Shown piece by piece: positions 24,027 to 60,200 of a stretch of DNA of 64,000 nucleotides. A model generated the notes under the pieces. It did no database searches, was not told where the DNA came from, and saw nothing but the letters and a program-made list of their open reading frames with translations. Each line of letters opens with the position of its first letter. Position 1 is the stretch's first letter. The translations under genes were made by a program, and so were the position numbers. The stretch comes from Saccoglossus kowalevskii (taxonomy: Eukaryota; Hemichordata; Enteropneusta; Harrimaniidae): contig NW_003156236.1 in the NCBI RefSeq assembly GCF_000003605.2, forward strand, positions 494,883 through 558,882. The letters run 5' to 3'.

Positions 24027-24291
24027 TTAAAAGTATGCATCATTGTCTGGTACACTTTCATCCTGTGACTTAAAAGTCCTCATAGAGCCAGACTTATGTG
24101 TGATATCAACACTGCTGCCACCGGCACTCTCACTGTACATTGGGTTGTAGTGAAATATCTCATTAAAAGATTCCTCTTCTTTCTTTAACTTATCTATCAC
24201 ATCTCCGTTATCTTCGATGTCGTCAAACACCCAATCCATTGTCGCTTCTTGCGTCTCCCAGCCCGGATGCTCCTTGGACGATAAAGAGAAC
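24027..24291 (-). CDS. Cytoplasmic tail with NPMY motif and stop (exon 65)
   Basis: The last exon, 24027-24291, starts after GCTGTTTAG and ends TAA at 24027-24029. The tail has 88 residues: [20 protein letters not shown], an acidic [15 protein letters not shown], then FHYNPMYSE and a Ser/Thr-rich end closing DNDAYF. NPMY fits the NPxY signal for clathrin sorting or PTB adaptors. The last residues A-Y-F have the hydrophobic-x-hydrophobic form of a class II PDZ ligand, a weaker hint. No kinase, TIR or ITAM is present. Confidence 0.93.
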
Positions 24292-33200: not shown

Positions 33201-36200
33201 ATTTATAAAAGAAAATGGTATAGAAAGCCACGGAAAGCATTCAACTAGTTTTAGACACGTTTTAGCAGCCTTTATAAAATTGTATAAGTAATTTTGTTAA
33301 ATGTTCTGCTTGTTTTATCGAATAAATACAAAAATATATTACGAAAATGTNNNNNNNNNNNNNNNNNNNNNNNNNNNNNNNNNNNNNNNNNNNNNNNNNN
33401 NNNNNNNNNNNNNNNNNNNNNNNNNNNNNNNNNNNNNNNNNNNNNNNNNNNNNNNNNNNNNNNNNNNNNNNNNNNNNNNNNNNNNNNNNNNNNNNNNNNN
33501 NNNNNNNNNNNNNNNNNNNNNNNNNNNNNNNNNNNNNNNNNNNNNNNNNNNNNNNNNNNNNNNNNNNNNNNNNNNNNNNNNNNNNNNNNNNNNNNNNGTC
33601 AAGTTCATGTCCAAAGTTTACTGAATACGTAGTATTGTATTTTGTTACATAATTCATATGTTTAACATAGAAATATGACTGAACTTACTGGCAGGTATAA
33701 CCATTAACAAGGTCGGTACAAATACCCCCATTCTCACAAGGAACATTGGCACATTCATCGATATTCACATCGCATGTTAAACCAGAGAAACCCGCGACGC
33801 AACTGCATTCGAACGAGTTTATTAGGTCGGTACAGTTTGCACCGTTCTTACACGGATTCGAACCACACTCGTCCACTTCCTCCTGCAAGACATTTAAACA
33901 ATAGTATACGATTGAGTTAAATTAATTAAAATGAGGAGTAAAGGGGGTATGTACGATTCCGTGATTTCATTCTCGTTTCTAGTTCATACGAGCACCATGT
34001 TGAGATAACCACAGCTGGTAGATTAGCTCATATAATGTTTGTAATAGACCTCGTCTTTGGTTTCTGCACCTACCTCGCAATAATAACCAGTGTAACCATA
34101 GATACAACGGCATACATAGTCTTCGGCATCGATAAGAACTACACACGTGGCATTGTTTCCACATGGATCGGGATAACATGGCGCAGATTGCTCATCGCAG
34201 TATTCGCCTACAATTTAAAAACGTAGAAAGTGATAGTCAATTTTAATTGTTACCTTCCAAAATAAAAATAATGCATGCTAATTATATGTTTGCTGATTAT
34301 AATTTGTACCGACATTCGTCAGTAATACTCCGATTTCAGATTAAACTTCCGGGATTAATATAGTAGTTATAAAATTGTGAACTATTCAATGAGTAACAAA
34401 ACAATTTACCTCCCCATCCGTAGACACAATCACAGGTGAACTCTTCAAGGCCATCGACACAAGTTCCTCCATTTTGGCAATTGACACCAATACAGTCATC
34501 GATGTTGTTCTGGCATCTAGAACCTTCATAACCATTAGGACAGATGCATGAGTAGGCATTATTCCCGTCTTGACATGTGGCTCCATTCATACAGGGACCC
34601 GGTGCGCATTCATCTAAAAAACAATAATAATATATAAACAACGTCGACATTCACACAGCCCTCAATTCGTAGTCCAGATACAAGAATTTAAAAGGCAATA
34701 GACACACAAAATTACTCATGACTGAATGAGCAACCATATCCTGCACTTATTTATAAATATACTTTGGTGTGACTAATGTACCATACCTTCCAGTAGATTT
34801 GACCAGAATTCCCAAACAGTTTCCGTGCTGCTTATGCGGCATGTACATCAATACATCATGATGACAAGTTGCTTAAACAATGGGATATTAAGGAGTATTC
34901 GTTTGGGTATTGGTGGCAAATTTGTAATGTTCACTTCGTACTCGTATGTACTGTTTACTTGCCAACTTATCGTTTGGAAAGCATATTACGTACTTTGGTT
35001 ATTTTGACGGAACTTACCGATATTTTCATCACACAGGACGCCTTCAAATCCAGGTTCGCACTCACATCTAAACGCATTCAACAAATCCTCACAGTAGATT
35101 TCGTGATCGCAGGGATCCCCATCACATTCATTCGTCTCCTCATCGCATTGGTCTCCTTGGTAACCAGGTACGCAATCACATCTATATGAACCGACTAGAT
35201 CGTTGCAGGTAGCACCGTTTTGACAGGGGTCAAATGCGCATTCATCCCTGTCGATTTCACACAAATCTCCTATGTAACCATCCACACAGCTACACACGTA
35301 CGATGAGAAGCGAAGTTCACACTGACCTCCATTCTGACAGGGGCCGCTGTCACACAACGCTGGCAACTCACATCGATCTCTGCAAATCATAAGAAGATAT
35401 AATAATTTCTATGGGATTATTTTGTTGTATAGTATGTTCATCACAACATAATATAGCTAAATGCAGATAAATTATGGCATACATTATAACAACATATCCT
35501 CTGATGTCTTTAAATAGTAAGCCTATCATACCGAGAATAATACTATCCGTTGCATATGAGTTTTACGTGCGTGTAAAAGTCTACTTTGTTAAGCACTGCC
35601 CTACATCCAACCATTACGTTAACGTTATTCAAGGAGCGATCATCTATCGTTATCAAAGTGGATAAACACCGATTGAGTGGTTCAATCAATAAGTCACACA
35701 TATGTGTATTGTATATTAAAGTAGTGTTCGCATTTCACCGAAATCACAAATTAGTCATAATTTTTGACAAAATTGGTCATAAATCGCATGACAATGTTCA
35801 TTAGTTTATTGTGTACAATCATGAAGCTAATGTCTCATGGTACAATGAAATAGCATTATTTTGTGTGTTACAGTAAACCTTTTTGAGAAACGTGTCCTAA
35901 TATTTCTTGAAAATTGCAATTTTTAGAACAATTCCATAGAACACATGTTAAAGAAAATTACATTTTTGTCACTTTTTAAAACCCAGATTTTTTAAATAAT
36001 TCAGAACAACTAAAAAAGTTCTCCATCATTAACATTATATGATTTTTTCAGCCTATGTCACCAGGCTATATTTTGAGATATTGCATAATATCTCCGTCGT
36101 AGGAATCTATGGTAAAAGTGTTATACTGGTGTCAAAATGGCGACTTTCCACTAAAATACAACCATCAATTTCTTTAAAAAAAGGCTGGTGACCCCCAACT

Positions 36201-39200
36201 TTTTTTCGGTCAAAATCCTTATATTGTCTTGGAGTACAGTTTATTGCAAAATGAATACATTCGGGGTAATTTAATTTATGAGTATGCTTCTACCTTAAGC
36301 TGATAAAGTAAGTTGATAACGGTTGTACTTCACTTTAATCATTTTTGTATATAAATAAATTACACGATATCGAACTCATTTTGGTATGTACAATCGAAAA
36401 TCATATCAAACCAAACCAAAGTTCATCTAAGATGTTCGGTTTCATTACACGATTACGTAACTACTACGTATGTTCATATACTTAACATAAAATCAAGTGT
36501 ACAAGAAAGGTATTACTCACCCTTTGTAAAGATTAGTACACTCACAGGTATAGTTGAGTGGGCCATAACTTGAACACGTACCGCCAGACAGACACGGTAA
36601 CAACTCAACACAAATGTCGTAATCTGACGAAAATGAGAAAGCATACTAAAAGTTAGAAATAACAATGTTACAACAAACGAAGACACATATATTACAATAT
36701 TGAACACGGGATTCGAACACGCTATGCGGACAAGCACCCCCAACCCACAGGCAGACTCGCCACCTACAGCGCCACTCACACGAACAATTGACATTGTTGC
36801 ACCTTGACGATAACGAGGTTAACATCTATAAGTTTCAGGTTAAGTTTTACAGTATATGCCAATAAAAATAACAGTTTGATTTACCATACATACTGTCCAT
36901 TATTTTAATTATGTTAAAGGGCAGTGGTCGTCGCGCTGCGTATGTGCGACATTTGTGTTGATAAACATTGATTTACCCACAATCCAATGCGCTCTTCAAA
37001 TGGAATTCACAAGTATGAGGTTTGCCCTAGGCGCGACTTGCACTGATTACCGCCGGTGACTCCTTCGATACCTTCCAATCACCTAAAAATTACCTAATTA
37101 AAGCTTAGGAACGTCTCAGTTCGTACTCGTTGATCTGCGCAACAGTCAAAGTCGCCATCTTTGTTTATATGAGACCCATATATCTCACGCATGCGTGGCG
37201 CGACGACTACCGCCATTTAATTACACAACTTACCAACGCAAAGGTCAGCACTGGAAGACCCAGGAGCTAATGTCCCCATTCCACTGGGGCATGGTTCACA
37301 TCCCGTTGCTCGGCTATCGTTTTGATAGGTATGGCGGGGACATTGTTGACATGGCGATAGACCAGTATTAGAAAACGACCCAGGTTCGCAGAAATCTGTA
37401 ATAATTGTAAACCCTTGTTAAATATGTATAAAATGTATATTTTAATGATATATGTGTTGAACATTTATTATCAGACACTTCAAATCCCGAAGCTTCTTCG
37501 ATAGTATGAATCGGATTATGATTTACCTCTGCAGCTTGACTCCGATACAGCAACGCCGTATGTTGATGTGTCATTTGGACAGGGTGTGCAACTTGTCGAC
37601 CCGTACTCAGACTGAAATGTAGCAATCTCACAACGTCGGCATGGTGCAACTCCGTTGGTAGAATAGAATCCTGGCCTACATAGTTCTGAAACACAACAAA
37701 GTGGTATTTGTCATTTACATATCACATCCGGGACATTCATACAGCTTGAAAGAAACCCAGTGAGCTCACATAAAAGATAATGATTTCGAATTCCTTCTAG
37801 GAAACACTCTTTATACGTACCTCGACACTCTTCGTCATTCTTTGTGTGTTCTTGCAATGTGCTGTAACCAGCAGGGCACTGTTGACATGACGTCTGACCG
37901 GTCATATTCTGGTATGTACCTATAGGGCAGCTGAGACAAGCGTCGCCGTCATCGAACGTTCCGGGCGTACACGTCACTTTTGTAGGAGAAAATAATTAGA
38001 CATTGTTGGTCATAAAATATTTAGAAATACACATTCCAACTAGTTTTAGTATACTAGATACAACTTCATTTCTCAGTCATAACCCACTTAGCGGAAAACA
38101 TCGTTGCAGGCCCTCTAGCCCTCTAGACAAAGCCATACTGTGACGACTCTCCCGCTTTAAGACAGTCACCCGCCAAAACAAATCTATCTGCCTCATTATG
38201 ACGTCAAAGAATCGTTTAGCCGCTAACGGGCATTGACTTGCTGCCACCGTGACGATGAATTTCAAGTCCAATAACACAAACACACACCATCCGTTACAGA
38301 CTTAACAGAGAGACATATAGAACATCGTCCCGTATTTCGATATCCAAAGTTCGTCGAATTAAAAGATGGTGGAAACTTCACAACTTACAACAATAGCATC
38401 CTCGTGTAATTGACCCTTGAGGGCAACAGCATCCCTGGAATTCTTCAGTAGGGGAACCCTGTAAAATAATCTCTGGGCAGGTAGCAGCCTGACTTTCTAT
38501 TACTAGTATACTAGAAAGTTCATTGTACGACGTTAGAATGAAATCCATAATCCGCTCCCCGCATATAGATACCGCTGTCCTGTTGGTATTGCCAGGCAAC
38601 GCTACAACACTCATTGAAATAGATGCGCTGACCTTTATTGAAAAACAAAAACATAGTAATTATTTGACAAAATGATAATTTTCGTTTAAAAAACAACAAC
38701 TGATACTCATGTAATTCGAACCATTAGATATTTCATTGCTAAGCCGACAAGAAAGTATGTGTGAAACTTTTTTTTTTCGAAGAATTGGTATATTCCATAA
38801 GTCGACCAATTCCTATCTTAGTCATCATATCACGTCAAGTCGCTGGATTGTTGTTTTGAACATATACAAATGCCAGGTGTTATTAGAAATCAAAATGATG
38901 AAATTGCTACATATCAACGCCAATTGTTATATTTATATAACAGTCGCAGGTGATTGTTATTTTGATTTATTTCTGAAAGAAGCACAAATAAGAACAAGTC
39001 ACGTACAATGTGTTAACTTGTTTTAATTTTATCGTATATCATTGGTGCAATTATTCCACTTTTCAGGCTGAAAAGACTTTATCTTCTACGATTTTACGAA
39101 TACTCACATTTTGACCATCAATCATGGCAGAGGTATCAGTCAGTACAATCTGTACTGTGTCAGCAATGTCACTGCAAAGGACTGATAGCTGCGGATCTAA

Positions 39201-42200
39201 CGACTGTATTATATATTCTAATATACTCTCGTAGTAAGCTGTGCACGACAATGGAATTGATGTTGTCGCTGTATACACGCCCCCAATAGTCAGGCAATAA
39301 TCCGGAACTTCGAGTTCTAATAGATGCAATGGAGAACATGTTAATTACACGTCCAAACAATTAAATGATGCGTTAGTTTATTTATGTTTCAAATATATAT
39401 AAATGTTATAATAAACTAACCCACACAATCAGGAACATAGTTATGCGGGTGCCATTTCCCTTCAAGTCTGCATGAATACATATTGCCGGGAGTGCCGATC
39501 TCTTGTATGAAGTCGTATCCACTCGGACAAGCCAGGGAACAGGAATAACCACCAAATAATCCTGGTACTAAACCAGTACACGCCTTTTGCCCACCTTCTG
39601 GGGTTTCGAGAGACCAATCTGGACACGACTCCGCTGATGAAATATTAAATATTATTGGAGTTATTATTATCAAATGATATAAATCGTGTTATATTATAAA
39701 AAGATATAATCTTCTCTACATGTCAATACAATGTAATAAAAATCCAGACAGTCTGATTGGTCCATGCGAGCGGACTAACCATTCACATCAAAGCAGGGAA
39801 TCACAAAATATGTTAACACCTTATGATGTTGATCTCTGTACACAATGGTTTTTGAATTATTAATATTATTATTAAAAAACACTCTTGTAGTTTATGATGT
39901 TGGCCAAAATATATGTGTCGTTTAAATCCGCGCAGGTTGGAGACGTCATTTTAAATAACCCCAGCTACAACTTCTTCACGCATGTCCAGTGAATTTCAAG
40001 AACTATGGAACAGATACGAACCCGTAATTATTATAATGACGGCTTAAAAATAACCGTTTCTCAAACGCAATAAGGAGAATTATCGAATGGCTTTTATGCA
40101 AATGACCCTGAACGCTGCAAGTTGTTTTAAATACGTAAGTTACGACCATTGTGTTTGTTTTGGCCTTCAGAAGCTGCGAAATGGATACATAGATTAAACA
40201 GATTATGAAATTTGTGACCCTACAATATCAGATTTATGAAACAAATGTAGTCATTTTTTATATATTTGTTTTTAAATATTATTCTTCGTATCTCTCAAAG
40301 ATTTGCACTATACTTTTGCAAGGAGTGCTGACATTCGATATATTATATTCAATATTATTGTGGTGTTTAGTTATTGAGAATCAGAGTTATTTTAGTGATA
40401 TATTCTATCACATGTTATGGGATTTGGTGTACGAATTAGCAGTGTAGTGCAGGTTCTAGTTGTAGATCACATTTCAAGACTTATATACAGCTGTAGTACT
40501 CAGTACGCGGAAATGAGTAGGTAGTCTTACTAAATCAGCAAAAACTCTAAAAGTATATTTCAACTACACTAACCAAGATGTTTGACACAAAATACGAGCA
40601 AAACAGTTTTTATTTTACTTTCATGCTATTTCTCCAAAAAGTAAACTACGACGAATTTAAGTGTAATTTCATACCAAGATATACACGTCCCTGTCCGTGA
40701 AGATATTCATGTATTTTTACGTAGATATATTTGAAACAGACGACCGATCCTGTGACTGGAAATGGTGTTGCTGGCGTTATTTGATCAGTCCAATATTAAG
40801 AACAAAATCTTCTAACTTAATTATTGTGTGTTTTTATTCACAATACTGACAGTATTGTAACCGTTTAGTCAACCATTATATGCAGACAGTTTTAAACAAA
40901 ATATGTACTGTTTATAGCTAGAAACACAATCTAATACCATTAAATGCTATTAAATAATTTGAGACACGGTTTTCGCGATAACCATACATATTTTGTGACG
41001 AATTATTTTTCTCGTTCCCGTTCAAATATACATTGTAATTGTCAAGCGGTAGATGGCACTAAAAGATTCGGGACTAAAAAAAACCCATTATAATCGATAC
41101 ATACGTTCCACCCAAGCTACGAATTCACAAGTAGCTTCATTTCCAGACATGTCCTGCGCTGTTACCGTGACTGTCAAATAGTTTACGTTGGATACAGTGG
41201 TACCGTTTGGTGGTTCATACGTAATACTTGCAATTCCGACATTGTCAGTTGCAGTTGCATGTGGGTAGATTATGTCAATTTCTAGTTCGTCGGTCAGTGT
41301 AAGGAAGCTCTCTGGACAGTATATTACAGGTGGCGATGTGTCTGAACATACAGAAATATATAATGAATATCATTAGTATGAAACAAACAAACAAACAAAC
41401 ACAAACAAACAAACAAACAACAACAGTAAATGTATATTTCATACGTGTTTTACTTACCCAAACATACTGGTGCAGTGCCATTCCAAAGGAATTCTTGAAC
41501 TACGTCCACTTCTACTTGGACATCTCTTCTCTTTCGGTTCGATCCAGTCACTTCCTCTACAAAAAACGACAACATTATTGTAAGACATATATTACCGTAT
41601 TACGTATAGTTATTTGTTGTATCGTCATCAACACTTAAACTGCAAATAATACTTATAGAATATACCCACAGTTAATTTTGTTAACTATAACCTAAACTGT
41701 TCAAGACAAGTGTTGTGAGATATGATAGACTTAGATGGAGTGTTATTATAAGGTTATCGTTACATGTATACGTGAATAAAATAAAGCATAGCACTAAAGT
41801 TGTGATCGATAAACAACTGATACACGAGTGTTCGATACAGCGCCGGTGAACACATTTACGAATCTATTTTAAAGATGATATTGTGCGTGACAGATGACCG
41901 AGCCTTTCAAATTGACTGGCTATGTAACACATACTGCACATGTTTTGCTCGAGTTCATAACCAGTCGAACAGCAAAGCTCAGCAAGGTCTTCTCTTGGAT
42001 TTGCATCTGCTGTAAGACCTGGACAATCGCCGTTTTCATCGACAGACGCGAGACCGGCAAATGCGCTGGGATAGTTTGTCATGAAAAACAATTCTTGTAA
42101 ACCGCAACCGGTCAAATCTGCTACGGAGTATCCAGGGTTCACTGGGTCGTTAGGCTCAATCATCCAATCAATCAATACACCCACCTGTGGATATTTGCCA

Positions 42201-45200
42201 AAAAATACAAAACACGGAGTCAAACAATTTTATAGTTTTATTTATAAGTTATTTTAAATAACATGCCGATGTATAAATATACAAATATCACTACAAGTAA
42301 AGGCTCTCTGACAGCATAATTAGAAAGTGGTTGAAGGGAGAAGTATTATTATATATACACGACAACAGAAACTATAACATATCTCATCTTTAAGAGTGTT
42401 ATGAACCCACCGACTGACTTCCAGTAGTCACTGTAATGGTGGAGGTAACATATATTGTAACTTTTCCATTAAGTTCAGGGCATGGAGGAGCGCCTTCATA
42501 TGGCAGAAACTGAGTTGCAGCCGTTGCCAAACCATTTGATATGGTAGTTCCATAGTATGATGCACACGTGTTCGCATCGGTAACTTCACTGTTAGCGTTA
42601 TAGTCAACGGTAATAGTGGCACAATAATTAGGATACAAATCTATGAAAGCAATCATAAATGTACATGGTATGAATTTACATATTGGTATGGAAACACTTA
42701 AACGCTTATATCGCTGATTAACACGTGCTACACAAGAGGGAGACAAAACAGAAACTATGCCAAAGAATCATTCCAATCCAACACGTGTAGAAGTTATAAC
42801 AATTACCTTGCAACGCAGTGATTGTGGTCACTTCTTTTGTAGTAGTCAGTTCTTTAGTTGTGGTGTCTCGCTCATCTATTAAGTAGGAAATTCATACACA
42901 GAATACAAATTACCTTACTATTTATTTTCTATTTGTTAATTCTAGAATGCACATTAATGAGATAATGAAGGATGGGATCTGTATACAAATAGTTACTTAC
43001 TTTCAGTAAATATCTCAGTTACGTCATCATCTGTTACTACAACAGTTATGCTTTCAGTTGAATCATAGTCTGGAGATGAAAAATATGATTTTATAAAAAA
43101 AAAATGTTATGCAATAACAGGATGCTATACTGAATCAATATCGCCGCAAATCTCGTGCTTCTAATTGATCAATTATTCAAATGATAACTATAACATCAAA
43201 CAATGAACTGAAGACTAAATACAAAATTTCAGGAAGGTTCATACATACAGGAATTGAAAGCGACTGGATAGTTAAAACGTCAGTAATAATATAAGGATGT
43301 AGATATCTTTATGTCACTATTGAAGAAGATAACACAGGTTGAATACTAGACCTACCTGTAACCGTGACGTGTTGTGGCATGGTTGTTTCTATCACATTTT
43401 GACCATTTTTGCATAGACGAAATTGCTTGCCAGTGTCTATTATCACATTATATGTGATCTGATCAACTCTGTAGGTGATGTGTCCATAGTCTGAATAAAC
43501 TTTCACATTGAAAGACGTCCATGTTTCCTCTGAATCAGCAGGAAGTACGAACACATTGTTACTCATTCTGTACAATGTCACCCATCCACCTCTACTCTGC
43601 ACTGTGACCGAGGTCACCGGATATCGATGATCTAGTACCACGAGCCCAAAAGCTGAACTATATGCACTTTCCTTGAACTGATAAAAGAGGAATGAAAACA
43701 TAAGTTAAATGAAAACAATACATTGAAGTACCACGTGCCATTTCATGCATCTTTTCGACTTCATTTAAATTTGTTTTTATAACCAGTCAAGGGACGCAGA
43801 CAACAAGAGGAGAATAAATCGCCCAAATCTGATAGAATGCTGTGTTAATTGAATGCTCAGCTTACTAGTTAATACTGCCCGACACTGACGTCATGTAGTA
43901 ACGTTTGTTAAAATCACTAACCTTCAGTTTGATATTCTGATTACCAGGACAAGCCACAAGTGCATATGAGACATCCGCACTGGTCGTGGCATCGTCATAC
44001 ACTATATCCGTAAAGGAATCTGGACTGAGAACAATGTCATCCCATGACATGCATTTATCAAATGGACATGTGTCAACAACTCTTACTGTCACCGTCACTC
44101 CATTTGGACCTGTTACTTCCATGCACTGACCACACCGCTGTACAAAATATATACATGGATAATTTAATCTATAAGTTTTTTTTTCCAACTACGTTAACTA
44201 CGACAGTTAAATATTTTATAACAAGTGTACTCACCGTTGCTGTATTTAAAGTGGCCATTCCGCCAAGACCACTGATATAATAGTCACCATAAGAACATTC
44301 ATCAATTCCTGGTAAACTGGATGATTCAACAATTGCACTAATGGGGTCAGTTATCACGCATCCATCTGAAACTGATAAATGCCAATATTTTTACACGTTG
44401 CTCACATAAAGAAAAAGCGCTTGAAAGAATAATTATGTTATATTCGTCTCAACTATAAAGTTGTACATAGATGGTTTACCTTCTGTCGTGGTTAATTCAG
44501 AAGGTACTGATGTTGTAGCCTCTTCCATGACATCAGTTGTAATTGAGTTCAAGGTAGTAACTATAGAGGGTACAGCAGGTGCACCAGCATCCTTAGTTGC
44601 AGTCTGTGTTAACTTGTCTGTAGCTGTGGTCTCTATCAACTCGTCCATGACTGTGGTCTCTATTAAGTCGTCTATGACTGTGGTCTCTATTAAGTCGTCC
44701 ATGACTGTGGTCTCTATTAAGTCGTCTATGACTGTGGTCTCTATCAACTCGTCCATGGCTGTGGTTTTTCTTAACTCTGTCACTTCTTCTTCCACTATTT
44801 CAGTTTCGTATACAGTCTCGTATTCTTTTGTTGATACACTGGGTGTATTTGTCACTACTTTAGTTTCTTCTCCCGCCGTGACATCAACATCTTTAGTGAC
44901 AGTACCAGTCACTTCTTCTGAAGTACTTTTTGTCTTTAGATCTGTTAAGAGGTTAAAGAAGCTTAGCATGAGCAATGCTTATTTAGATTTCCATTATATT
45001 CCTATGTTTTATTTTGGTTGTGTTGACGTAGATAAAGACGTGACATAAAATAATGCACATATAATAGATATGTAATGTTATCGTCATATAGTGCATCACT
45101 GATCAGTTACTGGTAACATGTTGTTTACCTATAACATTAATTATTATGTAACCTTAATTGTATATGTATGTTGTCCATGTTCACTCTCCTCATCCCTATG

Positions 45201-48200
45201 ACGTATTAATCACAGCTGTACTGTACTGTGCTGTGCTGTATGATAGCAATCGAACAGGAAACAGGGAAACCAGCGAACACATTTAGTGAGCTGTAAATCA
45301 CCCCCTATTCTCGCACAAAAACCGACTGATGGCGTTGTAACTCGAAAATCCATTGAGTGGCTGTAAGCTGTTCGAGATTTAAAAACAAACATACCTTTAC
45401 AAAATATTGTATCTATTTTGTTTTGTTGCATGTGTAGTTTAATTTATTCTTGCCGTTATTATTTACATTAATAATATCAAGATTTATAAGATTAGGGTAA
45501 GAAATCTTCATAAGTGATGAAGGTTTCACGCGAGACAAACAAGTCACGCGAATTGCGAGATGATTATAAATTTCTAGAAATCTTAATGCAACATAACTGA
45601 AACTGTGAAAGTACTGATTAGCGTTCATCTCAGGCCGTTTTGGTGGTGTCCTTACTTTTTTGCAAATTGTATAATACGTGTATATTACGTTTTGAATCTG
45701 GCGAAAACAATTTTTCTCATTTCTGCAATGGTATCGCTTTCAAACGCTCACAAAGCGTTCAGACCTTGTTAAATCTTCATTGCATATCACCGTATATGAT
45801 TAAGAAAGTTGCAAACCATTATCTTATAAACCGTTTGTACAGCTCCATTTTAAGTTAAAATACAACTGTTTTAGGTGATAATGGTTGCTAAGTAAGACAC
45901 AGTTTTGTCATAATTGCTTATACTTCATATAATAACAAAACTGTAACCTGTACTATTAATAATAGTTTGTTTGACTCTATAGTCATACTTTTCCTACAAA
46001 TTCATTTAAAAAAATGCAATATGTTTTCAAATATTGTTGTTTAATACTGTAGGCTGAATCGGATTATGGTTGATTTTAAACTAAAAATGTCGCGTTTGTA
46101 GGACATACAACAGTATGCATTGGATGAAAAATCGAAACCACTAATACGCAAGTGTTACTGTATGCACTAAAACAACTAGTATGAAATAATGCAATTCTCT
46201 AATACGCATGTGTACTCGAATGATCGAATGATTACTTGGATGTGTGCGACAATAATAGTTCAGATCATGATAAGTCTAGTGTGTTCATCATTTGTTAACA
46301 TAACTGGTGTTTTGTAATGCAACCAAAACAAATATACCAATCAATACAAATTACAAAACAAACAAGACTAACGTATATGAAAATTAATACGAGGGGCTTT
46401 CGATAAGTAATGCCCCTGACCCACTTCCAGTTGTCTGATCTAGATGAAATTTTGCATGTGTAATGATTTAAATCTCTGAACTAATTGTGGTTTCTGATTT
46501 ACAGGTGTTTGATCTGAGTCAGGTGTGAAATGGAGCCAGTTGAGTGTCGTACAGTGATCCGTTTTTTGTATTTGAAAGGACACACACCAAAGGAGACTTT
46601 TGATGAAATGAAAGCAACTTATGGTGATGATGCCCCATCATATGACCTTGAAAAAACGCTGGCATCGTGAATTCAAACATGGCCGGAAGTCTGAGGAAAC
46701 AGCTCCCAGACCTGGTCGTCTCTCTTCTGCCATTGATGAGGCATCTGTCCGTCAAGTTGAGGCAGCCATTTTGGAAAATCAACGCATTACCAAATAGCCT
46801 AAGGGGTCAAGATTAAGCACTTGGACTCACCACCTCCAAAGAAGGCAAAGGTGCAGCCCTCTGCTGGCAAGGTCATGCTCACAGGCTTCTGAGACCAGGA
46901 CGGAGTAGTGATGACAGATTTCCTGGCAATGGGTACCACAATTACAGAAGCCTATTACGCTTCACTTTTGCAAGATCAGCAAAGGTATCCTCCTCCTGCA
47001 GGACAATGCTCCGTTCCACAACGCGCATGTTGCCAGATCAGAAGCACGGGCGTGTGGCTATAAAATCCTCCTGCATCCCCCTTACTCTCCTGACCTTGCA
47101 CCCTCTGACTTTCATCTCTTCCCAGCCATGAAGTTGTTTTTTAAAGGAAAGCGTTTCCCAGATGATGCAGCCTTGATTTCTAAAGTTACAACGTGGTTGG
47201 AGGACCAACCTGGGTAGTTCTACAAAAACAGTGCCCAGAGCTGCATCAAACGATGGGAGAAATGCATAACTCTGGGTGGTTCCTATGTAGAGAAAGACTA
47301 ATAACTGTGCGAAATTCATATAGTGGGTGGAGAATTTTGTTAAACGCTGTGTAACAATTTGGGGAGAATGTAAACATTGATCAACACTTACCTGTAACTG
47401 TGGTATGTTGTGGCATGGTTGTTTCTATCACATTTTGACCATTTTTGCATAGACGAAATTGTTTGCCAGTGTCTATTGCCACATTATATGTGATCTGATC
47501 AACTCTGTAGGTGATGTGTCCATAGTCTGAATAGACTTTCACATTGAAAGACGTCCATGTTCCCTCTGAATCAGCAGGGAGTTTGAACACATTGTTACTC
47601 ATTCTGTATAATGTCACCCATCCACCTCTACTCTGCACTGTAACCGAGGTCACCGGATAACGATGATCAAGTACCACAAGCCCGAAGGGTGGTGAGCCAG
47701 AAGAACTTTCCATGATCTGAAAGGAAAAATTAATTCAAAATCAACTGGTCATAGACACACCCAAGCATCTTGTGCGAAAAATATATAGTTCTCTATTTCA
47801 AAGATATGCCACACGGTTCAACATCGGCTATCTGCAGTCACATGGACGTGCACAACATGAAACGTGTTGCAAGATATCCAAGTGAAGATAAAACGATTGA
47901 AGTTGATTCATTTTTTCCAGACATTCCCCAAGTGGACGTTCTGCCATTCAAATTTCCGCCAACTTAAATATACACTGAAATTAATGTAAATGGTATATGC
48001 AACACCCATGTTATTAATAATCGCGTAAGCACAAATACGTATTTGTAGTTTCCCAACGAGGCAGCGAAAGCCTGTGCCGGGAGATGGCTCAACTTTGTTA
48101 GAATTCGTTGATGTAGTCGTGTTCGACAATTGCCATATAAACCCTGCAGTCGTAGTAGTCACATATTATCAGAATTATTTTACAATATGAGGATAGACTA

Positions 48201-51200
48201 TAGTTATATAATATAGAAAACGATTATAATTTTTAAACAGTGCTTTTACAAAAATCTGGTGTTCAATAAGACATATACCTATACTTGAATCTACAAGTGA
48301 CGGCGGCGACCCACCATTCTCAAAAACGATTGGCTACCTCAATGTATGACTACTAATTTCTGGACAGACCTCCTCTTATGTTATAACCATTTATTATAAT
48401 CACTAACCTTCAGTTTGATATTCTCATCACCAGGACAAGCCACAATTGTATAAGTGACATCGACACTGGTCGTGGCATCATCATGCACTATATCCGTAAA
48501 CGAATCTGGACTGAGAACAATGTCATCCCATGACATGCATTTATCAAATGGGCATGTGTCAACAACTCTTACTATCACCGTCACACCACTTGGACCTGTT
48601 ACTTCCATACACTGACCACATCGCTGTACAAAAAAAATACAAATATAATAACTTAAGGGTTGTATTGCTAAAATCAACTACGACAGTTTAATATATTATA
48701 ACAAGTGTACACACCGTTGCTGTATTCAAAGTGGCCATACCACCAAGGTCACTGGTGTAATAGTCACCAAATGAACATTCACCAATTCCTGGTAAACTGG
48801 ATGGCTCACCGATTGCACTAATAGGATTAGCAAGTACACATCTATCTGAAACTGTTGAAAACAAACAATGGTTATTAACAAGTATTTTACATCAACACAT
48901 AATTAAAAAATGTAACCAGATGGTTTACAGTTTCCAATTTATATTTAACATTAAACTAATTGCGAAAAAATAACTGTATGTTTGGTATTCATACATTCAC
49001 CACGTACGTTTAAACACATGCACCTGTTGTACTTTACTGTATAATTTCATTTTAATTAAATTCATCTGGACATTACTCTATTCAGTTAGGTAGTTTGTAT
49101 TGAAAACACAAGATATAGTAATTTTGTTTAATTTCTCTATCTAGAATGTAATCTGGTTAGTTGCAATTATTCTTGTCTTTTTTGGATTCCATGGAGTTAC
49201 ACATCGTATAGATCAAATCCAAATTTTATAATCAAGTAATTTAATTTAGTAAAAGTTTGTTTACCTCTCTAATCGTTGTGTATACTTTAGTCAGCATATT
49301 TATAGGACTGCTTGATTTACATGTTTACAAACTCACTATATAATTGTATATACTGTATTTGAAGTTAGTGTAGTTAATGTACAGATTACACAGTTCTATA
49401 GCCATACCTGTCGTTTCAGTAACTAGCTGGGTTGATGATTCACGTTCAGTTGTAGTCTCTATCAACTCTGTCCCCTCATCGTCCATGGTGACAGTGTATT
49501 CTTCAGTTTCCGATTGTTCAGTCACTGACGTTCTTGACTTTGTTACTCTTGATTGCGATGCTCTGACTTCTGTTCTTGTTGGCAGTGTAGTCTTTGCTTG
49601 TGTTACCTCAGGTGCCAATGTTGAGGTATCAGTTTTCACTGCTGGAGAAGTTGAAGTACTAGCTCCGGTCATTGCACGTGTTGAAGTCCTTGGATCTGTT
49701 ACTACAGGAGTTGTTACATCTCTTGACTCAGTAGCAGTTACAGTAAATTCCTCATCAACTGTAAGAGTTGCAAACTGAGTTTCAGTTTCCCGTTTTGCAG
49801 TTGTTGACACTTTTTCTGTTGTACTGGCTTTGGGTGATGAATGTGGTACAGTAGTCATTGGAACTGAATATGTCTGTGTTGTGTCAATTGGCTGTGTGGT
49901 TTCAATTGGTACACGTGCTGTGGTCCTGTCATTGGTTGCTGCTTGTGTTGACGTACTTGCTTCAGTTACTGCACGGGTTGAGGTTCTTGACTCTGTTACT
50001 ATAGGAGTTACTGCACGAGTTGAGGTTGTTGGCTCTGTTACTACAGGAGTTGTAATTTCTCTTGACTCAGTCACATCTGTAACAGCAACAGTAAATTCCT
50101 CATCAACTGTAAGAGTTTCAAATTGAGTTCCAGTTTCCTGTTTTATAGTTGTCAATACTTTTCCTGTTGTACTGGCTTTGGGTGATGAATGTGGTACAGT
50201 AGTCACTGGCACTGAATGTGTCTGTGTTGTGTCAATCGTCTGTGTGGTTTCAATTGGTACATGTGCTGTGGTCCTCTCATTGGTTGCTGTAGGTGTTGAC
50301 GTACTTGATTCAGTTACTGCAAGGGTTAAGGTTCTTGACTCTGTTACTATAGGAGTTACTGCACGAGATGAGGTTCTTGACTTTGTTACTACAGGAGTTG
50401 TAACTTCTCTTAACTCAGTCACATCTGTAACAGCAACAGTAAATTCCTCATCAACTGTAAGAGTTTCAAATTGAGTTCCAGTTTCCTGTTTTATAGTTGT
50501 AAGACTGGCTTTGGGTGATGAATGTGGTACAGTAGTCACTGGCACTAAATGTGTCTGTGTTGTGTCAATCGTCTGTGTGGTTTCAATTGGTACATGTGCT
50601 GTAGTCCTCTCATTGGTTGCTGCTGGTGTTGACGTACTTGCTTCAGTTACTGCACGGGTTGAAGTTCTTGACTCTGTTACTATAGGAGTTACTGCACGAG
50701 TTGAAGTTCTTGACACTGTTACTACAGGACTTGTAACTTCTCTTGACTCAGTCACATCCGTAACAGCAACAGTAAATTCCTCCTCAACTGTAAGAGTTTC
50801 AAACTCAGTTTCAGTTTCCTGTTTCACAGTTGTAGATATTTTCCCAGCAGTACTGGCTTTGGTTGATGTATGTGGTACAATAGTAAATGGCACTGAACTT
50901 GTTTGTGTTGTGTCAATTGCCTGTGTGGTATCAGTTGGTACATAAGTCTTGGTCTTCGTCACTGAAGGTTTTGAAGAGCTTACTTCAGTTATTGCACGTG
51001 TTGATAACCTTGGCTCTGTTACTACAGGTGTCAATGTTGTTGCAACAGTTTGCACTGCAACTGGAGTTGTAACATATGTTGACGCAGACGCATCATCAGC
51101 AGTAATAATCTCATCTACTTCAGTGGTAACAGTTTCATAATAAGTTTCTTCTGCCACAGTGGTGATGGTAGAATATGTTCTTGGCATCGTAACTGTAGTT

Positions 51201-54200
51201 TGTGCATCAAGGGATTTCGTTGTAATCTCTATTGAATCAGTCACAACACTTGTTTCTGCTTTAGATGAGTAGATGAATTAAACGTATATCACATGATTCT
51301 TAGATTGGTTAAATAATTCAGTTTATAGAGATTACAAACTTTCATATGAATTTAGTCATAAGAAATAAAAATGAACTGCAATTCATTATCACCAAGTACT
51401 ATTGATATTAGAGTTCCATATTTTATTAGTATACTGGTTGAGTAAAGTTTCATTTGATTCATATAAAGAATAATGATTATTGAGTTAGTGAACATAATAC
51501 AAAGTAACTGTACCTTCTGGGTGGAACGTGGTAGTACTAGTTGGTTCTGTTCGTGTAGTTATTTCAGGTTGCAAAGTAGTTCTGTCCGTTCGTTCAGTTA
51601 CTATAGGTTCCGTTACGCCGATTGTTCGACTCGTCAACAATGTTGATTTTGCTGGCTTTGAAGTTGTAATTTCAATGGTTTCAGTCACTTGAATTTCCTT
51701 TGTGACGGTTTCTATATCAGTGATCTCTGTTTCATGAAATGTTGTGTATTTAGACGTTGGTTCATATGTACGCCCAAATGTTGTAGTTTCCATTATGGTA
51801 CTTGGTACTCGAGTACTGGATGATTGCACAGCAGCGGTTGTAGTTGTTGTTACTGATTCAGCCAGAGTCGTTTGTTCAGGCTCTATAACGGTGAATTGTA
51901 TTCACAATGTTTGATTTGTTACGTATGGGAATAAAGCATTATTGTGAATACTAAAACTATTGACAGTTATTTGTTTTACTCCTATACATGTACTGTTAAT
52001 AATAATATCAATTATATTCGTGACACTATATTAGATAGATAATTATATCAGAGGTAGTGCAACTGAATTATTGGGTTTTTAAGGATGCGTAATAATGGTG
52101 TTAATATGTGTAACTCCATGATGGTGCAACCTGACCGATTAAGTATTATTTAGTAATTATTATTATTTAGTAGTCTAAAACGTATTAACTATGTTAACAT
52201 TTAGCAGTGGGTGAGAAAGATTAAAGCAATAAATAATACGTGTGTTTTCGTTAAATTGAATATTGTTATTAACAAAACAGACGTTACCACTTAGAGTAAA
52301 TTAATACTGAGTAGATAGTTAAAAGAACAAAACCATTTACAACTGCATTTCATTGACATATGCATAAAAAAGTGGGTTCAACATAAGCATATGCAGCTGG
52401 AAACATATAATACACTAACCGAATGTGCAAGAACATAGTTGAGTGATATCATCATTGCCATGGAAATATGTTATAAGAATTTTGATAAAATATAGATCGC
52501 AGCTAAGAAGATAAAACATAGCACATAAAAACCTACCTTCTGTAGATGAATGACCAAATGTTGTACTGGTGATTGCTAATGTCTGTGTTGAGGAGGTTGT
52601 AATGATGGGCGTGGATGTTTGCTTCTGAAAAGGCGTGATTGTGGTCGCCATCTCTTCTTCTTCATCATCACAGGGTGGAAACTGACCCCCAGTGTCTATA
52701 ATATCACCATACTTATATTCGTCTAAAGTATATGTCGTTTGACCTTTATCTGAATGTATTTTAACATTTAAAGGTGGCACCAGATTACTTGATCCAGAAG
52801 GTGGGTCAAACAAATTGTTGCTCGATCTCACAAATGTTACCCATGTACCGCTGACTTCTGCTTCAACTGATGTCACAGGATACCGATGATCAAGAATCAA
52901 TATTCTAAACGAGCCACCACTAGACACAAGCTGGATAGAAAATGTAAATATTAACATCATTACCAATTATATGCCAATTAGAAATGCCATTTATAGTAAT
53001 GTATTCTATTTTCCATATATATCTAATAATGGGTATATTTGTTATTAATATTTCTGGCAAAGCAACATTTCCACGTACACTGCTGTCTCTCCTGGAAAGT
53101 TTCGCTAATTACACATTCAAGTGTAAACCAACCTGCTTGTTTTGAAGGCTGGGCAAATCACACTTGATTATACAGTCTGTAAAGGTAATTGATTCCCCTC
53201 CCCCCAGGAACAAACAGCTAATCTCTGTGGCATTGCTCAGGAAGGTGTCATAAAATGAACTAATCAAAACATTTTGAAAAACGAACATAAAAATTGATCA
53301 ATGAAATCAATTCCATCTAATTACTCGAATAATAGATTTGTATAGTGATATTAGAACTTACCTTCAGTTTTATATTCGTTTCATCAGGACATGCCACAGT
53401 TAAATAAGTCACATTGGCAGAATCACTGCCATCATCTACTAATAAACCAAATGCTTCTGGTCTCAGTACAATGTCGTCATTGCTTGTGCGGCAATTACTC
53501 ATGTGACAGTTATCCGCCACTCTAACGGTGACAGATGCACCGTTAGGACCAGTCACCCTAATGCATTGACCACAATACTGAAAATAATAAGATTATTACC
53601 TTAATAAAAGTAGACTTTTCAAAACGTTATAAACAATGTTCCCAATAGAAAAAGTAGTGTATAATATTATTCAGTCACGGAAGAATTTCTAACTAGTTTT
53701 AGTTAGCATATCTAGTTGCAAATGATTTCTCTGCAAGCCTTGGACCACCAACTTAAGACTAATGTTCACTCACAGCTGCGCTATTCAGGACTGCCATGCC
53801 TGCTATATAATCTTGATCTGTATAATAATCAGCAAATGAACACTCATTAAATCCCTGTAAATCTGACGACTCTGCAATAGCAGTGACATGTGTTCCATCT
53901 AATACACAGCTTGGTTGATCTGTGGATGAAAATAATTAGAATTATTATACTAATTATTAAGGGTATCCAACATAATTATGTATTAGTGCAGTGCGGTGCA
54001 GGTTAAATTTCACCCACTCAGTATGTAACATTATGCTATTCGTTTTAAAGGAATTTATTAATGAAAGTTGCATTGTTAGATCATGATCTTACCTGGAGTT
54101 CTTCCATGTGAGTATTAAAACACCAATAATTCAAAACACGTCTGCATTCACAACATTAAAAAGATCCCCAGAACTACTGTACAGTCTTTGCAACAATTTT

Positions 54201-57200
54201 CCAACGAATTGTATTGCAAGAAGATAATTCACAGTCGGTTCATCAAAATTAATAATAGAATGGATAAATAAGGTTACAATGACCAACACAACTCATTGGT
54301 TATCTATGAAATTGATTAGCTTTATTCACGTATGCATTAATCTCACTGGATATGTACGATTACAACAAGTTGCTTGAGGTTGTGATACGATGATATTTTT
54401 TGAATAATTCAACATTGTAACAGGAAAAAAAGTAATTCTGTAATTAGATATATCTATGTCGTTGTCATCGTCGCTAGCGAATGTCAATTCATTCATCCAT
54501 TGCCTCACCATTATATCTTGGGAAAATCCCCACTTTGTTTCCATGGGAAATCGAATACAAAGTCCTGTGTTTTTGTCAGGGTGGTTGTTACAGAAACGCT
54601 ATTTGATGGATCCAGCTTCTTAGCGCGGCAAATCAAATTCAAGTGACCAAGGTATATATGATAATCTGCAAAGGATTCCCTCATACCAATAGTAGTTTGT
54701 TACTTATGTTTTCAAAACTGTATGCCAAGCAAAGTTACATATGTATGTACAAACGCGCTGTGTTCAGAGATATTGTAATCAAAGTAATTATGCTAAATAG
54801 TAGCTGTGTTTGAAATACAGCCCACTACGTGCAATATATGTTATATATTAGCTGGGTTTGGACCACTATACGACAGGTTAGATTTATCCTACATAAGTGA
54901 AATGTTACTCAAAGCTTAATTTATTACTTACAGAAGCAATTCTATGCCAAGAAAAACATACATACACGATCATTTACAAATTGCAACATTTAGTCCTTCG
55001 GAACTTCTGAACTGACAATTTGTTATTTGCGATGTGATCAATGATGATTGAATCGTGGTCACTGGCTGGATCACGATTGACCACAATGAAACATGACATA
55101 CTAGTGAATGTGAAGCACAAGCATTAGTATATACAGTTTTGTGGGAAAGATTCAGATGATAATGCTTTAACATAATCAAAAAAAATAAAAGGTGGTTTAG
55201 GTTTTACCTGTACTTGTTTTCGTTGTAGCTCTAGCTGATGTAGATGTTCTTGTTGATGATGCTTCTTCTTCTGTTATTATTGTTGTTGCTGCTGTTGTTG
55301 TTGTTGTTGTTGATGATGCTTCTTCTTCTGTTGTTGGCGGTGTTGTTGTTGTTGTTGTTGTTGCCACTGGTGCAGTTGTTGTTGTTGTTGTTGATGATGC
55401 TTCTTCTTCTGTTGTTGTTGCTGTTGTTGTTGTTGTTGTTGATTCCGCTTCTTTCGTTGTTGTTGGAATTGTTGGGATAACTGTAACTTCTCGTCCTTCG
55501 CAAATTAATGAAAGGTAATGAGTCGGAGTGAATCCAAAGTCGCAAGTGTATGAAACAGTGGATCCTACTGAGAAATCATCTCCAAGGCGTTGCCCATTTT
55601 GTACCATACCAGGATCATCACATACACCTGAAAAAGTTAATGCAGTATTAAATTTATTTCTCATGTTCACTTAAACGAACATTATTCTCTTTTAATGAAT
55701 TTGTAATGTACTGTGAAGATGAGAATATATGTGTGTTTACCAATAATTGTGCATTGCGCTGGTATGCCACTCCAACTACCATCTTCCATACAGGTTCTTT
55801 CGTCATCACCCAAAGGTCCATAACCATCATCACATGTAAGTGTTGCAATGCTTCCATACTGTGAACCATTGCTGTACGACCATGAACCATCAGTAACCAA
55901 CGTCACATTACCACAGTCAACAGCTAAAGAATAATTGTGAGTAAAATAATATAGTATATTCCCAGTGAGTATTTATATGGCACATCACTCTGAAAAGGGA
56001 GAAGAACGTATAGTTGAACTGTCATTTAAATGAAAAGTAAATGATCATGTTATGACTCACCAATACATGTTGGTGGGTATGAGCTCCATTTATATTCCGA
56101 ACCATCTTTTATACACATTCTTACTGTAGGTCCATATATGTTATATCCACTGTCGCATGAATACGATGATCTGCTAAAATACCCATAAGCTGGGTCGCTG
56201 ACCTGTACCATGCCATTGGCGATGTCCTCTGGTTTACCACATGACACAGCTGAAAAAAGTAAATCCTGACTGTTTTATCAGCTGGTAGGGGTGCATATCG
56301 CTAGTATTCACTTTATGGGTACGATTAAGATAAGAATGACTCCTGAGAAACGTCTGTTTAGAACCTTACCTTCGCAGGTTGGCAAATTATAATCATACTC
56401 GCCATCTGATTGACACGTAAGAATATTCTGCCCATTGAGTTGATAGCCAGGGTTGCATATGACAGTCAGTGTGACATTCAACTCGATAAGAAGTAAACCC
56501 GCAATAGAGTATACCGTACGAGTACGTGGGATGACGACGGCATCATTGATATTTGGTAGTATGCATGTCAACGCTGTCAAAACAGAAAGAGTTAACAGTT
56601 AAAACTATACATCATGATGGCAAATCGAATCGAAAGTAATTCAGAAATATCTGATGGAGTATTTGGTATGATAGAGCAACAGGTTATATATAACAAAAAG
56701 ACAAATTGGAGTACTTATCGATGGTGGTGAAAATGGTTGGATTATTATTATTGAAAAAAAAACACAATTGTCGCCATACTTACGGACACAGCTCTTGTTG
56801 AAGACGTACATATCACCGATGGACAGCCCGCTCTCACCAGGAGGGATGTAGAACCCACTAGTGCCATCAGTTGTAAAGAGTATGTATCCATTAAAACAGT
56901 CACACGTGTAGCCTCCATCGATGTTATTACATTCACTATAGATATTACACGCATTTAAATCGTCATCAGCACATTCGTTAATATCTAGAAAAAAATAATT
57001 TGTTTTTATTATTATATATATATATCGATACAACTTACCAATCACGGATCATTCTCATATAGGCTCGAGCAGACCATGGAAGTCTTGACAGTGTGGAAGA
57101 CCATGGAAGTGTTTCATTATGGCATCGGACAGGAGCAATTTTTACTCACCACTACACGAGTCTCCTGACTCGTCAACTTCAAAGCCGTTAACACAGAGAC

Positions 57201-60200
57201 ATTCATATCCGCCATTTGTATTCTGGCAAATTTGATTCAATCCACAACTATCCGTATCTGTCTCGCATTCGTTGATGTCTAGAAAAATATATTATAAAAT
57301 TACGGCACACGTTGAAACACTGTTATAAGTACAACAAATTCAAGTGATATTCTCAAAGTGAAGTTCTCAGAAGGTAAAGTTATATGAATACATAAAGTCT
57401 CGGGCTAAATAAATAAGCGACTATCGTCCTTTCAATTTCGCACAAATGAAGAACTCTTCAAGAAAACCTGATATCAAAGAAAAAACATCATATTTTACTC
57501 GAGTGATGGCGCCTTATTTGTGCCCACAGTCCGACTGGTTTTTGTATATCATTATGATTGTATTTTGTCTTCCAAACTCCAATATCAACAATGTTGCATG
57601 AACTTCCGTTACCAAATGTAAGATAAGATTATACACATTCAGGGCCAATGGAACATAATAATACTTTATCGCCTGATAATGTATTCAGATGAAATAATGA
57701 AATATGCAAATAAGGGCAATGGTATACCTGTGCATGTTGGCGGAGAATCGCTCCATTGTGTATCATCGTTACATGTAATATAGGTAGGTCCGTCTATTTG
57801 ATAACCAGACTGGCAGATGAATGTTATATTATCACCAGCGTAGTAAGGACCAATATCAGGAGTGGCATCCATGTTGAGATCTGTTATGACCAATTCTGAA
57901 CAATTTATACCTGAAAATAAAACAATTATAATTAAATAATGCAGAAAAATAATCAAATTAAAAAGTTTTGAAAAGTTCAGATATGTTTAATATTTCATCA
58001 CTTACGTTGACAATCCCCTGGATCTGCCGTCCATTCTCCGTCTGACCCACAAATCGAAGATGTGAAACCAATAACATTGTATCCGTCGGGGCATTCAAAG
58101 GAAATAGTTACACCGTAGATTAGATCGTCCCCACCGCCAACAACTACATATGTCATCGGATCTGGCATACTTGGCCCAGGGCACACGACAGCTGCACAAA
58201 TATAAGTTTGCATTGAAAAAATCGTCAATGTTGTGTCAAATTCCACGCCACAATATAATATCTTTATAATTTCATGTTTAAAATTACTATTTTCTTGTCC
58301 CATGTTGTGTCCCGTACGTCGTCTATACTATCATAATATAATGTGTACTAACGCAGAAACGACAATTTGACAGGGTACTCACGTTCACATGAAGGAATTT
58401 CGGGTCCCCACGTTCCATTAGCTTGGCATACCATGGACATTGCACTGCTCGAGAACGTGTAGCCCTCAACGCATCGATAACTGACCACGCCCTGGTAGGC
58501 AATGCTGGATACATTATAGAAGAAAGCGTTTGTAGCATCTGGTGGGATGCCGCATCGCACACCTGCAATTAAAATGAGGAGATCCCTGCGTATTAACACG
58601 ATGATATGTACAGAGTTGGGATGGAATACATGCCATTATGTTATTTCAGCCAAGATATAGTCACCATATAGTGTATTGAAGATTGCTTTAGATTTAAGCG
58701 TCTGAACAGACACGACATATTTTTTTTATACTTCAGATAAAAGTACTTTCAATTGTATACTCACGTGAACAAGACGGGTATTTTGAATTGTCTCCCTCAT
58801 TCCATTCTCCGCCGTATTCACAGGTCAGGCTGTCGACGGTGCGACTTGGCTTTGTGAACCCTGGGAGACAACTGTACTGAACAACTGTACCATAACCTCT
58901 CTCATTTGTACTGGCAATAACTCCGTCGCCAATGTCTATTGCAGGACAGTCTGGAGAAGATTGCATTAGAATGATCAGAACAAGATGACTACAGTAAATC
59001 ACGAATAAATGAAGTCATTGTCATTGTTTAAATGTGTCCAGATCATATTTGTTTTGTTTCAAGAATGACATGTGTTATACACAAGATTTAGAATTGACAC
59101 ATGTCAAATCGAGTTTTCAACTAATGCCACATGATTGGAATCTGGCGTTGAAAAAGAAAGCTATCGTTTGGTTCTTTCTTTGTACCAATAAAACTCTTGT
59201 CCCATTATCCGATCAGAAGGTCTTTGTGAACCAAGCTCTAAAGCTTAATCAGTCGCAACTATCTTGGCATATGACCGGGTATATAGCCTGGTAAGAATAG
59301 GTAAAGTATAGCGTCATTATACTTCGAATGTTTGAACATTTATAGGACAATACTGCACAACAATCGGTAATATCTCTGTTGTCCATACCAAATAATAAAA
59401 ATAATAGTATATATAATATATTCTTTGTCAATCATATCTATCTGGACTAGACAACACCGTCATGTCCAGATCAATTCTACTTACCCGGAGAGAACCTTGC
59501 TCTAAATCCCATTGCATTCCTCTGTTGACTACTAGTGAAAACAACATAGAACATTCCATTTTCTGAACGTGAATTAGGGGGTGGAAGAGTACCGTCTGTA
59601 ACTGTTCCTGAATTACCGCTCCATGGACCTGTCAGTATGTCACCGCTATCATCAATCCCATCATACACCTGTGTTAGAGAAATATTAAAACACATCATCA
59701 TATCAAAACTCATCAGGATCGTCATCAACATCATCTTTGTACTCAATGTGTTTATCATCACCTATCGTTTAAAGCGCGGTAGTCGTCGCACTGCGCATGT
59801 ACGAGATATATGGGTCTCATATAAACAAAGATGGCGACTTTGACTGTTGCGCAGATCAACGAGTACGAAGTGAGACGTTTCCAAGCTTTAATTAGACAAT
59901 TTTCATGTGATTGGAAGGTATCGAAGAAATCACCGTCGGTAATCAGTGCAAGTCGCGCCCAGGTCAAACCTCATACTCGTGATTTCCACTTGAAGAACGC
60001 ATTGGATTGTGGGAAAATCAATGTTTATCAACACAAATAAGCTGGCACTACTGGTGCTCGTTTATTCTTACCGCAATCTGACATAGTCAAGCCCGTCATT
60101 CGTTTGTTTGTTTGTTAATCGTGCGTATGTGTGTTCGTTTGTTTGTTTTGTTGTTGTCTCGAATTTATAGGTATGGTTTGGGCATGATCTATTTTTTACT

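Follow-up and report, generated by a model that had tools for sequence, protein, structure and literature searches.

Expansin modules lacking the known cellulose platform in a predicted mucin-like membrane protein gene of Saccoglossus kowalevskii

Accounts of expansins treat them as proteins with which plants, microbes and plant parasites loosen cell walls. What, then, would three of them be doing inside one giant surface protein of an animal? The question is raised by a locus of Saccoglossus kowalevskii (assembly of 572 Mb in 4830 contigs) found in a 64,000-nucleotide stretch, here called the window, which is the end 64 kb of a 558,882-base contig (C4557:494883-558882). An earlier sequence-only reading had placed three expansin modules in one receptor gene and, because they are expansins, had proposed that they bind polysaccharide. 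The three modules, encoded on the minus strand at window positions 43356-53919, are confirmed here; they have relatives elsewhere in the same genome, and the key aspartate and aromatic platform of microbial expansins are replaced in all three window modules.

Each module consists of a double-psi barrel (D1) followed by a CBM63-type domain (D2), both at full length according to the profile matches and a model of D2. The NCBIfam profile expansin_EXLX1 (NF041144) matches with E-values of 1.6e-20 (M1), 1.9e-23 (M2) and 3.2e-25 (M3), covering positions 14-194, 32-193 and 33-193 of its 194, though the bit scores (73.3, 82.8 and 88.6) all lie under the curated cut-off of 100 bits. The profile check suggested by the sequence-only reading thus came out positive with NF041144 for every module and fell short with Pfam DPBB_1, which gave 14.7, 18.7 and 18.3 bits against a gathering score of 28.8. 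Profile matches to the Protein Data Bank (PDB) support homology over two domains, and the predicted structure, which covers D2 (exon c of M3), has the expansin D2 fold. The aligned core of M1 has its Cys in the 7 columns where loci of the Ignavibacteriota/Myxococcota type (L009, L010, L012 and L024) have theirs, and 8 invariant Cys together with open frames are common to M1 and M2/M3. Microbial EXLX1 proteins (YoaJ of Bacillus subtilis, 2bh0/3d30; Talaromyces, 7wvr; Streptomyces, 9ms5; Xanthomonas sacchari, 9ms4) have the same order of D1 and D2, near-full profile coverage and the same D2 fold; in contrast to them, the window modules lie in a predicted giant membrane protein, in three copies and interrupted by spliceosomal introns.

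These introns, which had been taken as a host signature, are of the GT-AG kind and divide every module into a three-exon cassette with phases 1-0-0-1. In M1, exon a (53774..53919, phase 1 in and 0 out) encodes the N-terminal part of D1, exon b (53362..53577, phase 0-0) the remainder of D1 from xCGQC to NIKLK and exon c (52537..52930, phase 0-1) the CBM63-like D2 with the start of a Ser/Thr-rich linker. The corresponding exons a, b and c lie at 48715..48851, 48408..48623 and 47392..47716 in M2, and at 44235..44371, 43922..44137 and 43356..43677 in M3.

The modules are not peculiar to this gene. Searching the own genome with exon b of M1 matched only the three window copies, and the idea of a single-gene oddity was dropped when NF041144 found five more loci; Pfam DPBB_1 gave no match in the genome at E 0.001. 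Of 11 NF041144 matches, four fall in the window gene and seven at the other loci, L101 to L105 (C1730:420517-420726; C2603:527228-528062, matched twice; C3226:36308-36553; C3226:160503-161547, matched twice; C352:84595-84804), on four other contigs of 474,934-804,554 bases. Four of the 11 matches, all at these other loci, run across a stop codon; taken one exon at a time, frames b and c contain no stop at any of the five, and exons b and c joined reach 90.6, 93.3, 71.4, 77.6 and 51.1 bits with NF041144. By eye, four of the five (L101, L102, L103 and L105) also show an exon-a-like frame, which L104 does not. All eight modules (three in the window, one per further locus) have a phase-0 intron at the same place, immediately ahead of xCGxC. 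Seven of them agree in the position and phase (0) of the donor of the second intron, that of L101 being shifted by a few bases and having another phase; at L105 a second-intron acceptor matching the other modules was not located. Because the five loci share the intron before CGxC, the window modules belong, on the sequence evidence, to a native, multi-locus family, which strengthens the earlier claim that they are no foreign material.

How these relatives are embedded varies. In L102 and L103 the expansin seems to be the last part (a stop, and no donor found there); L105 resembles the window cassettes in its terminal phase-1 donor, and the C-terminus of L101 is hydrophobic. Profiles of Sushi, EGF, CUB, CTLD, GCC, LDLa and HYR domains from the window gene returned no convincing partner domain in the eight stretches L101-L108, the best match being an LDLa-like stretch in L107 (E 0.0012). 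A test for Ser/Thr-rich frames in the same stretches (at least 38% in 40 amino acids) picked up one L104 frame and nothing in L103. By eye, Ser/Thr-rich stretches below that threshold can be seen upstream of the L103 expansin exons (L103:2346-4103), and L103 may be another mucin-expansin gene, with the expansin at its end. On the strand of the L103 expansin, about 8.5 kb downstream of it, are LDLa-like stretches (L107:4507-5055), which may or may not belong to that gene.

Do the modules retain what makes an expansin work? In B. subtilis EXLX1, PMC11040781 names D71, Y73 and D82 as essential and W125, W126, Y157 and K119 as the residues binding cellohexaose. We aligned the modules with 80 bacterial loci, the best 80 of 140 relatives from a single genome scan and mostly actinobacterial. 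The D82 column holds Asp in 80/80 bacterial loci and Val in M1, M2 and M3; the W126 column holds Trp in 80/80 and a gap, Pro and Ala, respectively; the Y157 column holds Tyr in 71, Phe in 6 and Trp in 3, and Asn in all three modules. Less uniform are the W125 column (Tyr 51, Trp 12, Phe 1, His 15, Asn 1, thus aromatic in 64/80; Phe, Ser and Ser in the modules) and the K119 column (Lys in 79/80; Val, Met and Lys). Asp at D71 is retained throughout the modules but is only weakly diagnostic, since the bacteria have Asp in 11 and Asn in 69 of 80, and position 73 is Cys throughout and hence uninformative. At a further position, which we take to be T12, Thr in 80/80 bacterial loci is answered by Glu in M1, M2 and M3. 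Five conserved D2 scaffold positions (H, R, P, N and F) are retained in all three. Bacterial conservation reaches 90% or more in 66 columns; all three modules agree with the bacteria at 23 of these, and all three depart from them at 31. In the wider family D82 and W126 are retained only by L101, and none of the eight modules has an aromatic residue at Y157, a Trp standing one residue later in L102-L104.

Since none of the three modules retains D82 or the W126/Y157 platform, canonical cellulose binding or wall loosening by them is unlikely as far as the residues tell, and the argument that they bind polysaccharide because they are expansins finds no support here. The known cellulose platform is absent from the aligned modules, an absence from which we do not conclude selected loss, and the wall-loosening function appears to have gone with it; the modules may or may not bind some other glycan. 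Probably the fold now serves another purpose.

Nonsynonymous and synonymous divergence (dN/dS) is 0.427/1.428 between M1 and M2, 0.426/1.903 between M1 and M3 and 0.063/0.269 between M2 and M3 (ratios 0.2-0.3). With dN/dS well below 1 in all three pairs, purifying selection seems to act on the copies. M2 and M3 are 86% identical over 471 bp including intron, and 94% over 298 bp, so their duplication is fairly recent.

Whether the modules are part of one large protein was approached by translation and splice-site scanning, from which an automatic chain of 66 exons and then a hand-curated chain were built. Curation removed six exons (the three between 47282 and 46712 that overlie a transposon relic, and those at 45367-45302, 40173-40022 and 39835-39780), added five (55923, 51882, 42640, 42184 and 30677) and shifted one border in each of three (in 41341, 39633 and 37976). 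The resulting model, on the minus strand and with its 5' end cut off by the contig end, has 65 exons and 4743 amino acids; its exons are bordered by AG...GT and fit in phase, its frame is free of internal stops, and it is in line with the proposal of one mosaic gene with a membrane tail. All six outer cassette junctions are in phase 1 and stop-free; as the cassettes enter and leave in phase 1, no cassette exon is first or last in the model. A signal-peptide-like first exon was found in none of the three intervals tested, a weak negative because a control stretch also gave none. We infer that all exons form one transcript, and the best explanation of the locus is a single, very long gene for a type-I membrane glycoprotein in a deuterostome-like animal. 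The mitochondrial contig (17,037 bases) tentatively fits a deuterostome such as a hemichordate: its nad1 scores higher with ATA read as Ile than as Met in 26 of the 26 structures listed, although by small margins, AAA is read as Lys at conserved sites, and the best nad1 matches appear to be mammalian chains.

The modules alternate with Ser/Thr-rich stretches of 95, 783 and 163 amino acids, all without Cys. The linker from M1 to M2 (49408..51882; exons 51882-51514 and 51255-49408) has 783 amino acids including the end of M1 exon c, 39% Ser plus Thr and no Cys, and that from M2 to M3 (44480..44941) has 163 including the end of M2 exon c, 31% of them Ser or Thr. Within the coding Ser/Thr-rich exon, positions 49673-50943 form a tandem repeat of 348 nt in 3.7 copies with 88% match, which is possibly length-variable. 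Long, Ser/Thr-rich, Cys-free and partly tandem-repeated stretches, as expected of membrane mucins, are thus a feature of the predicted protein.

We therefore weigh several accounts of the locus. The one we prefer, and hold to be about evenly balanced between right and wrong, is that an expansin cassette was shuffled into a mucin-like membrane mosaic protein and duplicated, the old polysaccharide platform being lost. A three-exon cassette with phase 1 at both outer ends would have been taken from the animal's own expansin family, inserted into a CUB/Sushi/EGF/HYR mosaic protein and later multiplied, so that three expansin-derived modules would sit as beads between mucin-like Ser/Thr stalks. There they might act as folded recognition or spacer units, binding protein or glycan through another surface, in a protein serving adhesion, mucus anchoring or recognition that might be cleaved at its two polybasic motifs and internalized by means of an NPMY tail. 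This account builds on what was computed directly: homology of the modules over both domains, the cassette phases, the intron that the other loci also have, the replacement of D82, W126 and Y157 in the modules, and the signal of purifying selection among the copies. Several points weigh against it. The phase consistency of the 65-exon model is partly by construction, because exons were picked by hand for phase fit, and the donors at 55741, 41935 and 30582 are weak. The EXLX1 residue numbers were transferred by motif, EXLX1 itself being absent from the alignment, and in one alignment a two-residue gap puts an Asp at D82. M1 keeps an aromatic Phe at W125 and M3 keeps K119. The D2 model included bacterial rows in its input and is weakest (mean predicted local distance difference test score, pLDDT, of 51 over residues 1-10) at the expected W125/W126 site. 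Functional columns are kept in 0/4 cases against 23/62 for the others, a difference that is not significant (Fisher p = 0.29), so general divergence could explain the losses. The dS of M1 against M2/M3 is near saturation, the M2-M3 figure takes no account of possible gene conversion, and ligands other than those proposed are possible.

If, as the sequence-only reading proposed, the modules still bind polysaccharide (microbial, algal or of the animal's own matrix), here through a changed surface, the protein would be a pattern-recognition or food-capture receptor. D71 in all three modules would fit, as would the LDLa, CUB, Sushi, HYR and pentraxin-like neighbours, modules common in recognition proteins; the loss of D82, W126 and Y157 in all three, and the lack of an aromatic strip evident by eye in exon c, make this possible but doubtful. 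That the modules are active expansins, loosening cellulose or chitin on the surface of the cell, would accord with the two-domain homology; as every module lacks D82, W126 and an aromatic at Y157, this seems most improbable. The same losses, and the 31/66 conserved bacterial columns that differ in all three, would suit eroding, functionless passengers in an otherwise functional receptor; dN/dS well below 1 between all copy pairs speaks against erosion, as do the 8 invariant Cys and open frames still shared by M1 and M2/M3 at a dS of 1.4-1.9, and we consider it very unlikely.

A different kind of doubt concerns the predicted joining of the exons. The expansin exons might form one or two separate genes, nested in or lying between parts of neighbouring Sushi/EGF genes, and the large intervals at 55208-53919 and 47392-44941 (the latter with the transposon relic) would leave room for this. 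We find it improbable given the six stop-free phase-1 junctions, the three intervals devoid of first-exon candidates (with the weak control noted above) and the Ser/Thr-rich exons that join both sides of M2 and M3 and follow M1, with a further such stretch before M1. Contamination or a misassembled bacterial insert might be suspected from the fact that, solved structures aside, all relatives with named sources are bacterial, which reflects that only prokaryote, plasmid and phage collections were scanned. GT-AG introns, a contig of 558,882 bases, neighbouring modules of a eukaryotic mosaic kind, four more contigs that carry the five intron-bearing relatives, and trees without a close bacterial sister make its chance practically negligible.

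If the shuffled cassette is the better account, where did it come from? The relatives were drawn from those three collections, and the eukaryotic side from the own genome. A first tree held 27 of the 80 bacterial loci (near-duplicates removed), the three modules and 7wvr; a bacterial donor lineage was considered and set aside, the modules standing on a long branch with no bacterial sister. In a second tree, of the window modules, the five other loci and 16 bacterial rows, the window modules group with L105 (support 86/82) and L101 lies nearest the bacteria (94/86), both values being under the starred level and the branches long. With support moderate, the trees leave an old animal family and an old transfer both standing. 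We would give slightly less than even weight to the fuller proposal that deuterostome-like animals possess their own intron-bearing expansin family, from which a cassette was shuffled into a mucin-like receptor and tripled, the fold without its key Asp and aromatic platform forming a new class of adhesion or recognition module.

How far is such an architecture known? A similar mix of Sushi, EGF, HYR, pentraxin-like and ephrin-receptor-like modules, and Ser/Thr-rich Cys-free stalks, presumably characterize SVEP1/polydom-like proteins and membrane-mucin mosaics, and we know of no expansin modules in either family. The module order of SVEP1/polydom-like proteins differs from that of the window protein, and their VWA start would lie beyond the missing 5' end. 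Animal expansins as such are already known from print. Plant-parasitic nematodes and a whitefly, with an EG45-type protein, likewise have expansin-type domains, cases that PMC11800479 ties to plant feeding or parasitism and ascribes to horizontal transfer; the whitefly protein has D1 only, after a signal peptide (PMC11800479). From the pedal disc of Exaiptasia pallida a protein annotated Expansin-YoaJ is tabulated (PMC6626399), which tempers the rarity in animals that the sequence-only reading had stressed. Judged by its table description only, it has, like the window modules, Barwin-like (D1) and PHL-pollen-allergen-like (D2) superfamily domains and is, unlike the window protein, classically secreted with one chitin-binding domain; the table row mentions no Sushi, CUB, EGF or mucin mosaic (PMC6626399). 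In the open-access literature searched, from which subscription papers are mostly absent, no paper brought expansin, sushi and CUB domain together, and a co-mention of S. kowalevskii and expansin was unrelated. An animal multi-locus family with graded active-site loss and one member in a giant surface protein is a natural test of what the fold does without its polysaccharide platform, and it bears on whether animal expansins are old or were repeatedly acquired.

Around the expansin modules, Pfam on the gene model identifies LDLa, three CUB, eight Sushi stretches, EGF_CA, two HYR, ephrin-receptor-like repeats (3+4), 12 EGF and Laminin_G_3; scans of the 64-kb window with Rfam and for tRNAs were empty. 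All the following lie on the minus strand. The N-terminal part available (59485..63914) would comprise a C-type-lectin-like exon, recognized by eye and not in the Pfam list, LDLa and three CUB domains, followed at 55208..58950 by four Sushi, two EGF, four Sushi and the 95-residue stretch before M1, 58% of it Ser or Thr. After M3 come short linkers and a two-exon Cys-containing module, X1 (41935..43069, X1 at 41935-42640), which has no Pfam family above cut-off and whose second exon is single-copy in the genome. An exon at 41458..41556 carries an RKRR furin-like motif, seen by eye, and 38389..41341 holds HYR, a Sushi-like exon (by eye; Pfam listed no Sushi) and unassigned exons, X2. Three ephrin-receptor-like and 12 EGF stretches fill 32548..37976. 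A run of N at 33351-33597 in this EGF array may hide an EGF exon, although the phases fit without one. The LamG/pentraxin-like module (31540..32458) scores 43.4 bits with Laminin_G_3 (cut-off 27.6) and narrowly misses the Pentaxin cut-off (24.7 against 25). Next, 25246..30945 has HYR, a Sushi-like exon (by eye; none listed by Pfam), the unassigned X3 with RRRKRQ, four ephrin-receptor-like repeats and EGF. The RRRKRQ polybasic motif, also noted by eye, lies at 29199-29451, and with RKRR it makes processing into chains possible. The signal peptide would lie beyond the contig end. A predicted transmembrane stretch, a cytoplasmic tail with NPMY and the stop (24027..24704) close the frame; hydrophobic stretch and tail were read by eye, and the tail exon has a single match in the genome. 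Positions 46400-47360, within the intron that separates M2 from the M2-M3 linker, hold a broken transposase relic with frameshifts in its reading frames, which we take to be mariner-like.

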